Source: Chloroflexota bacterium (GTDB lineage Bacteria; Chloroflexota; Limnocylindria; Limnocylindrales; CSP1-4). From it: a DNA stretch of 59,252 nucleotides. Below the pieces are notes generated by a model, which did not search any database, had not been told where the DNA came from, and was given only the letters and a program-made list of their open reading frames with translations. The translations under genes and the position numbers were made by a program. How positions within the stretch are numbered: the stretch's first letter is position 1; each line of letters begins with the position of its first letter. Shown piece after piece: positions 4,210-6,525 of this stretch. The DNA lies in the NCBI GenBank assembly GCA_005882635.1, contig VBFG01000045.1, forward strand, positions 1-59,252, in the 5' to 3' direction.

Positions 4210-4306
4210 GCCGGGGCGGTGCCTCCTGGCACCTGGTACGGCCGTCCCGGATTGGTGCGCCTGCGCGCCCGACCATCGCCGCTCCCCCTTCGGGACGAGT
4301 CGGTCA

Positions 4307-4336
4307 TTGAGGTGCGGGAGCAGCGCAGCGTAGATT
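4307..4336 (+). promoter_or_regulatory. Sigma70-like promoter of the structured RNA (TTGAGG-N18-TAGATT)
   Basis: -35 TTGAGG 4307-4312, 18-nt spacer, -10 TAGATT 4331-4336; predicted TSS about G4343, one base before the closing stem. Confidence 0.5.
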
Positions 4337-4342
4337 TACGTC

Positions 4343-4560
4343 GTGCCGTAACGCGACACACCCGGGGACAAACCTGGGGCGTCGGTCACGGGCCAGGGCA
4401 CGGCCTTCGGTTCACTCCATGACGGTTGGAGCGCCGAGGATCCCGGACCCAGGCCACGAGCCGAGTAACCACGGATCATCGGCCAGCAGGCCTGGGACGC
4501 GGTACGGCAGAACTCATCGCTCGAATGTTCGTCGCCCTCCGGCCACCCGGAGGGCGATTT
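4343..4560 (+). ncRNA. Standalone structured small RNA, 6S-RNA-like layout (family not established)
   Basis: Closing stem 4344-4355/4498-4509 (12 positions, one mismatch); 4448-4455/4489-4496 (8 bp) enclosing 4460-4464/4479-4483 (5 bp); 4404-4410/4434-4439; 4415-4419/4427-4431; alternative 4373-4378/4448-4453 plus 4389-4392/4442-4445; promoter before and terminator after; no competing CDS. Confidence 0.6.
4533..4560 (+). terminator. Rho-independent terminator-like hairpin
   Basis: CGCCCTCCGG-CCAC-CCGGAGGGCG (10 bp) followed by ATTT. Confidence 0.7.
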
Positions 4561-5303
4561 CATGTCCGGCGGGGCTCGGCCGGCGGCCGGGCCCGACGGA
4601 CGACGCCACGCCGATTGAGGTCGGCCCGGACGACCCGGGCTGCGGCCTTGAGGTCCCGGTCGCGGGTGATCGTCGTCGCCAGCCAGTCGATGTACGAAGG
4701 CTCGAAGCTCGCGACCTGGCCGAGGGTGTGCCCGTGGAACTTGCCGAAGGGCAGCTCGAGGTCCAGTGCCTTCGCGAGTGGCGGCTCGGCGGGCGGCCGG
4801 AAATTCCGGACCCGCGACCGGGCCGACGGACCGGTCGGCGTGCTCGCACGCGGTGGCTCCCGCTCATCGTCGAAGACGCGGTAGGGCGGCTGCCCTCTGA
4901 GGATGTGGCCGTTTTCGCGGCTGTCGGCCGGGCGAAGGGGCTGGTTCCGCGGACGGAAGGTCCCGGTCGTGTCGACCCGGCCCGTGACGGGTCGGGTGGG
5001 TCGCGGGCGAGGCGGGCCGCCGCGGCGCGACCGGCCGCCGCCGGCGTCTGTCCCGCCCGGCCAACGCGCTCCAGCGCGGTCGTCCGTGCCCGGCCGCCGC
5101 CGTGATGCACCGCCGTCCCGGGTGAGGGCGGCATACGCGTCGTTGATCTCGGCCATGAGGCGCGTCGCGACGCGCGACGCTGCCGGATCGTCGCCCGTCA
5201 GATCGGGATGGTGCCGTCGGGCGAGCCGCCGCCAGGCCGCTTTGATCTGGGTCGGTGTCGCGCCCGGCTCGATGCCGAGGACGTCGTGCGGATCGCGTTT
5301 CAC
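4560..5303 (-). CDS. J-domain (DnaJ-like) protein with C-terminal ExoX-like/DUF3820-like module
   Basis: VKRDPHDVLGIEPGATPTQIKAAWRRLARRHHPDLTGDD (J domain, HPD); C-terminal LPFGKFHGHTLGQVASFEPSYIDWLATTI; GTG start at 5303. Confidence 0.85.
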   Translation of the reverse strand: MKRDPHDVLGIEPGATPTQIKAAWRRLARRHHPDLTGDDPAASRVATRLMAEINDAYAALTRDGGASRRRPGTDDRAGARWPGGTDAGGGRSRRGGPPRPRPTRPVTGRVDTTGTFRPRNQPLRPADSRENGHILRGQPPYRVFDDEREPPRASTPTGPSARSRVRNFRPPAEPPLAKALDLELPFGKFHGHTLGQVASFEPSYIDWLATTITRDRDLKAAARVVRADLNRRGVVRRARPPAEPRRT

Positions 5304-5376
5304 CACGGCCGGATCATATCGGTGGTCCGGACGGGCCCCGCTTGACAGCCCCTCCGCTGGGCCGTCCCATATCGCC

Positions 5377-6525
5377 GTGCCCTCTCTCCGAAGGACCGGC
5401 CTCGTCGCCGCGCTCGTCACCGTCCCCTTCGCCCTCGCCTACCGGTTCGCATTGCTCTACCGGATCCGAGCGGGTTTTCCGATCCCCCGCCCGCCGCAGC
5501 TCAGCCCGGCCGACATGGGCCTGCCGTTCGAGCCGGTCGACGTCCATTCGGGCGACCTGACCCTTCCCGGCTGGTTCATCCCCGCTCGTGACGGCTCGCC
5601 CGGTCCGGGCGTCGCCCTGGTCCACGGCTGGGAATCCGCCCGGGACCGCCTTCTGCCGATGGCGGTCTTCCTCCACGCAGCCGGCTTCCATTGCCTGGCC
5701 ATCGACGTCCGCGGCCACGGCGCCAACGCGGCGGAAACGCTGCCGATCTCCGCGGGGGAGTTCGGCTCCGACGCGCTGGCGGCGTTTCGCGCGCTGGACG
5801 CGCGGCCCGAGGTGACCGTCGGGGCGGTGCTGGGGCACTCGATGGGGGCGATCGGCGCGATCCTCGCCGCGGCCGAGGAGCCGCGGATCGCGGCCGTCGT
5901 CTCGACGTCGGCGCCCGCCGACCCATGGCGGCTCACCCGGCAGACCTTCCGGCTCGCTCGACTCCCCTTCCCCGATGCGATCGCCTGGCCGCTCGCCTGG
6001 CTGACGACCCGTGTCTATCTCCGTCCGCGCGGCCACCGGATGACCCGGATCTCGGCGAGCGAGGCGCTGCGGACGCTCGACCGGCCGATCCTCCTCGTCC
6101 ACGGATCGGCCGACCCGGTCGTGCCGATCGCCCATCTCGAGCGCCTGGCGGCGGTTGCCCGACGCGCCGGGCGGAGCGTCGAGATGCTGACGATCGAGGG
6201 CGGCCAGCATTCCTGGCTCTACGAGTTCCCGGCCTACCGGCGGGCCGTCGCGGAATTCCTGGCGCGAGTCCTCGGTGGGCCGTTCGAGCCGGCGGAGGCG
6301 GGCGCCCTGGCCGCCGCCGCCGAGACCCACCGCCTGCCCGACACGCCCCGGCCGCAGACCGCCGTGCAGCGCGAGCCCGGCGGCCTCCGCTCGCTGGTTG
6401 CCCTGGCGGTGCCGTTCCGGAGGGCCGGTCAGGGCATCGGCGACATCGAGGACCCGGACGGCGACCGCCAGCCGCCGCCCGCTCCGGTTCGGACCGATTC
6501 GGACGCTGCGGGGATCCCGTCGTGA
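5377..6525 (+). CDS. Alpha/beta hydrolase family protein with N-terminal membrane segment
   Basis: VALVHGWESARDRLLPMA, nucleophile elbow GHSMGA, LVHGSADPVVPIAH; GTG start. Confidence 0.88.
   Translation: MPSLRRTGLVAALVTVPFALAYRFALLYRIRAGFPIPRPPQLSPADMGLPFEPVDVHSGDLTLPGWFIPARDGSPGPGVALVHGWESARDRLLPMAVFLHAAGFHCLAIDVRGHGANAAETLPISAGEFGSDALAAFRALDARPEVTVGAVLGHSMGAIGAILAAAEEPRIAAVVSTSAPADPWRLTRQTFRLARLPFPDAIAWPLAWLTTRVYLRPRGHRMTRISASEALRTLDRPILLVHGSADPVVPIAHLERLAAVARRAGRSVEMLTIEGGQHSWLYEFPAYRRAVAEFLARVLGGPFEPAEAGALAAAAETHRLPDTPRPQTAVQREPGGLRSLVALAVPFRRAGQGIGDIEDPDGDRQPPPAPVRTDSDAAGIPS

Follow-up and report, generated by a model that had tools for sequence, protein, structure and literature searches.

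What is encoded at positions 4307-4560 of the window, the 59,252-nucleotide stretch of DNA analysed here? The locus is intergenic, and its contig (C145) belongs to a 3.18-Mb genome whose assembly is fragmented. Upstream is a plus-strand gene for an FAD-dependent oxidoreductase (DAO; Pfam PF01266; 2926-4209), and downstream, convergent with the locus, is a minus-strand gene for a protein with a DnaJ domain and an ExoX-like C-terminal region (PF00226 and PF20600; 4560-5420). A preliminary description had proposed a freestanding gene for a structured small RNA, either a divergent 6S RNA or a new family, with no co-directional gene adjoining it downstream. This last point is borne out in the window. 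The freestanding gene and the new family have likewise held: a promoter and a terminal hairpin frame the unit, covariation is heavy, the RNA occurs in one copy, nothing in Rfam matches it, and it is retained amid differing neighbours. Judged on such comparative evidence, the locus is almost certainly a real RNA gene.

Infernal-type comparison of the locus with known Rfam families, proposed at the outset for 6S, SRP and RNase P RNAs, gave no match, and nothing relevant emerged at either gathering or permissive thresholds, SRP RNA, tmRNA and riboswitches included. Sixteen member loci compared with all 4227 Rfam families at E-values up to 1 likewise returned nothing relevant. The RNase P RNA of this genome sits on another contig (C15), and a literature search found no paper on the RNA. 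A riboswitch would stand in the leader at the 5′ end of a gene read in its own direction; most members precede a convergent gene, the exceptions being genus g6 and part of genus g14.

Relatives were sought with positions 4300-4562 as a DNA query over 61 genomes, and 16 of these, the source genome counted, gave matches. The matches share two conserved blocks—one ACCTGGGGCGTCGGTCACGG, the other CACGAGCCGAGTAACCAYGG and then TCGGCCAGCAGG—with a conserved promoter ahead. Two covariance models were built, the first from 14 sequences and the second from 80 members. The window's family belongs to Ca. Limnocylindrales (Chloroflexota); of its 107 genomes, 80 carry the RNA by covariance model, as do 29 of the 34 better ones. 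Copy number is nearly always one per genome. The one genome with two copies (G067) carries one that is like those of its own genus, and the extra copy is probably contamination of the assembly; two loci, L085 (G067:C310) and L083 (G130:C131), have the same neighbours and spacing and equal scores, and come from different genera. A covariance-model search of the class outside the family gave no match, and the second model, run against 400 genomes sampled from the phylum, found none outside the family. Less filtered searching of other families yielded chance-level fragments that lack the core, and added one further member of the family itself. The pattern of the two core blocks, searched over GTDB r220, occurs on 54 contigs, all Chloroflexi, Chloroflexota or Candidatus Limnocylindrales by title except one Anaerolinea sp. 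As far as the sampled genomes show, the RNA appears to be confined to a single family within Ca. Limnocylindrales.

In the supported fold, drawn on the plus strand throughout, a closing stem leads through a long-range helix to a three-way junction, which carries invariant nucleotides and from which a long variable arm and a 3-bp hairpin emerge. The closing stem P1 (4344-4355/4498-4509), whose 12 positions had been recognised in the preliminary description, is confirmed, with a single A.G mismatch at 4351/4502; across 80 relatives 85.7% of it is paired, and compensatory swaps are many. Inside it, the long-range helix P2a joins CCGGG at 4362-4366 to 4491-4495 (89.7% paired in the sequence-only alignment). 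P2b/c follows, pairing CCTG G GGC at 4373-4380 with GCC AG CAGG at 4482-4490, so that 4373-4376 meets 4487-4490. This helix is 99% paired and, read by eye, its P2b part swaps among CCTG/CAGG, CTCG/CGAG, CCCG/CGGG, ATCG/CGAT and ACCG/CGGT. The base of the P3 arm pairs 4382-4398, which includes an invariant TCG and CGG, with 4448-4464, which ends in CACGAGCCGA; 93.5% of it is paired, and double changes occur in 8 of its 14 pairs. Its apical part (4399-4447) varies in length and sequence in alignments A1, A2 and A4. Next to the P3 base is a conserved unpaired junction segment, GTAACCA (4465-4471), whose A-A-C is invariant in the first alignment of 14 sequences and whose GTAAC becomes GTGAC in distant genera. 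The small 3′ hairpin P4 (4472-4481; 4472-4474/4479-4481) has 3 bp, of which the pair 4474/4479 swaps between A-U and G-C from genus to genus. Beyond P1 runs a conserved single-stranded tail, GAACTCATCGC (4510-4520), with the A and T of its CATC invariant in 44 relatives. In many relatives the sequence of this tail, ACTCATCGC, is similar to ATCGCC, the 5′ arm of the next hairpin, and the tail could compete with that arm for the 3′ arm.

Conservation and covariation in homologous intergenic regions, on which the preliminary description had staked its RNA gene, were found across the 80 relatives. Plus-strand folding gives z = -4.2, and none of 200 shuffles folds as well. The 80-sequence model alignment has 88.7% of its cells paired and double-sided changes in 32 of 44 pairs, with a covariation score of 0.385 against 0.134 when shuffled. 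Because that alignment leans to its own model, the count was repeated on a sequence-only alignment of 44 sequences: 91.7% of pair cells are canonical, 20 of the 39 pairs show double compensatory changes, and the covariation score of 0.275 exceeds both the shuffles (0.148, sd 0.006) and the slid controls (0.085 at most).

These alignments do not sustain the two-state switch that had been read into the locus, in which CCTGGG (4373-4378) would pair with either a local partner (4361-4366) or CCCAGG (4448-4453), the second choice competing with an 8-bp helix (4448-4455/4489-4496). The 8-bp helix pairs and covaries no better than shuffles and is 59% paired in the 80-sequence alignment, while the pairing 4373-4378/4448-4453 is 65.5% paired and not conserved. 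A local hairpin between 4361-4366 and 4373-4378 could form at 84% pairing in 44 relatives, but no double change accompanies it; it could be a folding intermediate. Because the conserved partners are instead 4362-4366/4491-4495 and 4373-4376/4487-4490, the switch as drawn is without comparative support, and evidence of a regulated switch was not found.

Folding alone leaves the strand undecided, because the minus strand has a comparable score (z = -4.7). The plus strand is favoured as the RNA strand because G.U cells outnumber A.C cells, by 44 to 19 and, in the 80-sequence alignment, by 211 to 150. The consensus energy is -94 on the plus strand versus -85 on the minus strand.

Just upstream of P1, and in the same direction as the plus-strand RNA, lies a conserved promoter. 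The -35 box TTGAGG (4307-4312; family consensus TTGCCC) and the -10 box TAGATT (4331-4336; family consensus TACGGT), with an N18 spacer between them, are present as the preliminary description had them. TANNNT stands at the -10 position in 64 of 76 loci, as against 1-2 of 75 in shifted control windows; 55 of those 64 also match the -35 box at 4/6 or better, and among shifted controls the figure is 0. The predicted transcript (4343-4560, about 215-220 nt) takes its start from the -10 box and its end from a terminal hairpin (4532-4560). That hairpin had been given as 10 bp plus ATTT at 4533-4560; it does exist, but its stem has 11 bp (4532-4542/4547-4557) and TTT comes after it. By a count without shuffle control, 79 of 80 loci have a strong hairpin downstream, with a dG of -15 or lower. 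The U tract is short, TTT only in the window, so that efficient termination is a prediction. The hairpin likely serves the convergent DnaJ/ExoX-like gene as well.

Further upstream, a conserved block (4244-4296, plus strand) is bounded by an outer dyad, GTCCCG (4244-4249) and CGGGAC (4291-4296). In 30 relatives 93.6% of the dyad's cells pair; just 2 pairs show double changes and slid controls come close, which is weak evidence for pairing as RNA. Because the pairing is not clearly above controls, we treat the block, dyad and motif together, as a candidate activator site. The motif is the 25-bp GGTGCGNNNNCGCNNNCGACCWTCG (4254-4278, plus strand); its start precedes the -35 box by about 53 bp, and most genera have it ahead of the RNA. 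A genome scan found a single perfect copy, with the remaining matches near chance, on which ground the motif was rejected as a regulon-wide site. Over a somewhat wider span, 4212-4300, the elements ACC-GGTAC, the GTCCC dyad and GGTGCG...CGACCWTCG are conserved and move with the RNA when neighbours differ; the span may act as an activator site or belong to another transcript.

The genomic setting varies among relatives. Downstream, the convergent DnaJ/ExoX-like gene (cluster c1) is found most often. Upstream, most relatives carry a gene other than the FAD-dependent oxidoreductase, and in most members it is either a methylmalonyl-CoA mutase gene or a predicted lipoprotein gene (c5), which has no Pfam match and owes its name to a reading of the signal sequence. 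Some members of genus g14 have the RNA flanked by ssb and purA, with purA, so called from its sequence, co-directional and roughly 1 kb downstream; in genus g6 a co-directional gene, read from sequence as an MFS transporter, begins about 120 nt downstream. The RNA may have a cis role in these two settings. The RNA and its upstream block are retained in some relatives where the flanking genes differ, ssb-purA for instance, and by this comparison the RNA is independent of its neighbours. Conversely, c1 and c5 stand adjacent on one strand, with a gap of about 100-140 nt and no RNA, in 4 genomes of f2, the sister family, and in 3 RNA-negative members of f1. Where the RNA lies between c1 and c5, its strand is opposite to that of this co-directional pair. 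Gain of the RNA in the f1 ancestor, followed by some losses, is the simplest account of this pattern; alternatively, the RNA may have been lost in f2. The DnaJ and ExoX-like fusion protein itself (4560-5420, minus strand) is kept across the order, including the small-genome sister family.

How might such an RNA act? The best explanation, to which we incline by a modest degree, is an undescribed family of trans-acting, protein-binding RNAs. A stand-alone sigma70-type transcription unit would produce a transcript of about 215-220 nt whose structured core measures about 166 nt, and this RNA very probably acts in trans. Because the nucleotides of the junction and the P3 base are near-invariant while the P3 apical arm changes freely, a pattern usual for sites that recognise a protein or ligand, the former would constitute a recognition site, for a protein rather than, less likely, a small ligand, and the variable arm would be a spacer. 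In essence, the RNA would be a protein-binding regulator in the general manner of 6S or Ms1, built on a different architecture. Taken by itself, protein binding is putative, and we consider it evenly balanced. Against this reading stand the short terminal U tract and the conserved single-stranded tail GGACTCATCGC, which would also suit a base-pairing regulatory sRNA, with the tail or the junction segment as seed and the folded body only stabilising the molecule. The tail sequence ACTCATCGC is complementary to GCGATGAGT, which holds a start codon; the tail is single-stranded in the model and keeps its core in 44 relatives. The strongest conservation, however, is in the structured junction and not in the tail, which decays in genus g3, and we think a base-pairing sRNA rather unlikely.

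Two further alternatives would dispense with a trans-acting RNA. A cis element of the DnaJ/ExoX-lipoprotein gene pair—a leader, attenuator or 3′ UTR, on either strand—would fit the position of the RNA between those genes in most members, and the good folding of the minus strand. It is improbable when set against a promoter that points the opposite way, G.U counts that favour the plus strand, the persistence of the RNA and its upstream block where the pair has been replaced, and the occurrence of the pair without the RNA in the sister family. A structured or attachment-like DNA element, not made into RNA at all, is scarcely credible: genomic neighbours do change among some members of the family, and the block upstream forms a dyad, but compensatory changes in long-range helices with G.U pairs, together with a promoter and a 3′ hairpin, speak for a transcript.

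The remaining alternatives concern RNA polymerase. 6S RNA is defined by a central unpaired bubble that resembles an open promoter (PMC9130861). A divergent 6S RNA, as the preliminary description had put forward, would bind RNA polymerase holoenzyme and template product RNAs. The RNA is of the right size, 180-200 nt being the range for 6S, with about one copy per genome, a closing stem and a long apical arm (P1 and P3 in all alignments), and a small 3′ hairpin. Moreover, the place of 6S looks vacant in the window's class because Rfam and a tuned model find almost none there. Of 151 Chloroflexota genomes sampled, 34 have 6S by the Rfam model (RF00013), none of these being among the listed members of the class; a Chloroflexota-tuned model (R3), built from 19 Chloroflexota 6S sequences, adds one weak match (G039) among 177 genomes of the class. 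By these two models, 6S is detectable in many other Chloroflexota. Yet RF00013 has no match in the genome of the window at the gathering score and none on the locus at E up to 10, and the tuned model, run unfiltered on 17 member loci, gives fragments of about 15-111 nt and no full-length match among the matches listed. Where 6S has its open bubble, P2b/c and P3 are paired and heavily covarying, double changes being frequent in P2b/c, so the layout with a large central bubble does not apply. Nor does the RNA have a relative outside the family in the sampled genomes. Because the bubble-equivalent region is paired and covarying and no model matches, we do not file the RNA as 6S; orthology was rejected once the tuned model had been applied, and a divergent 6S RNA is very improbable. 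An unrelated RNA would be another matter: a putative RNA-polymerase-binding global regulator, beside 6S and Ms1 and in a class without detectable 6S, is an unlikely possibility.

A RIP-seq study asks whether further RNA-polymerase-binding RNAs exist besides 6S and Ms1 (PMC11077062), and a true RNA polymerase binder at this locus would bear on that question. Whatever its partner, the RNA represents a well-supported new family, with 80 members and, in an unbiased alignment, 20 of 39 pairs compensated; little is known of RNA biology in its lineage, which is uncultured and soil-rich. Because the same site exists in the sister family with no RNA in it, one can date when the RNA was gained or lost and look for its partners.

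Among known systems, 6S shares with the RNA a stand-alone gene in about one copy, a similar length, a closing stem, an apical arm and a 3′-side hairpin, whereas the RNA has no sequence-structure match to 6S and no large open bubble, and possesses, at its core, a three-way junction that is invariant. The actinobacterial Ms1 RNA, which binds the core of RNA polymerase and is represented by an Rfam model, is likewise lineage-restricted, stand-alone and structured. It is related in structure to 6S, is about 300 nt long, opens into a central bubble and carries an additional short hairpin at each end, two in all (PMC9130861). The RNA described here differs from Ms1 in length and architecture, and lacks an Rfam match. 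It also differs from the catalogued orphan motifs, in that no Rfam family matches the RNA of the window or 15 other members. One such motif, Chloroflexi-1 (RF01698), is an orphan structured RNA of unknown function that came from comparative genomics (PMC2864571), and like the present RNA it is known from conservation and covariation. As a kind, the orphan structured bacterial RNA is familiar; this family of it is new.
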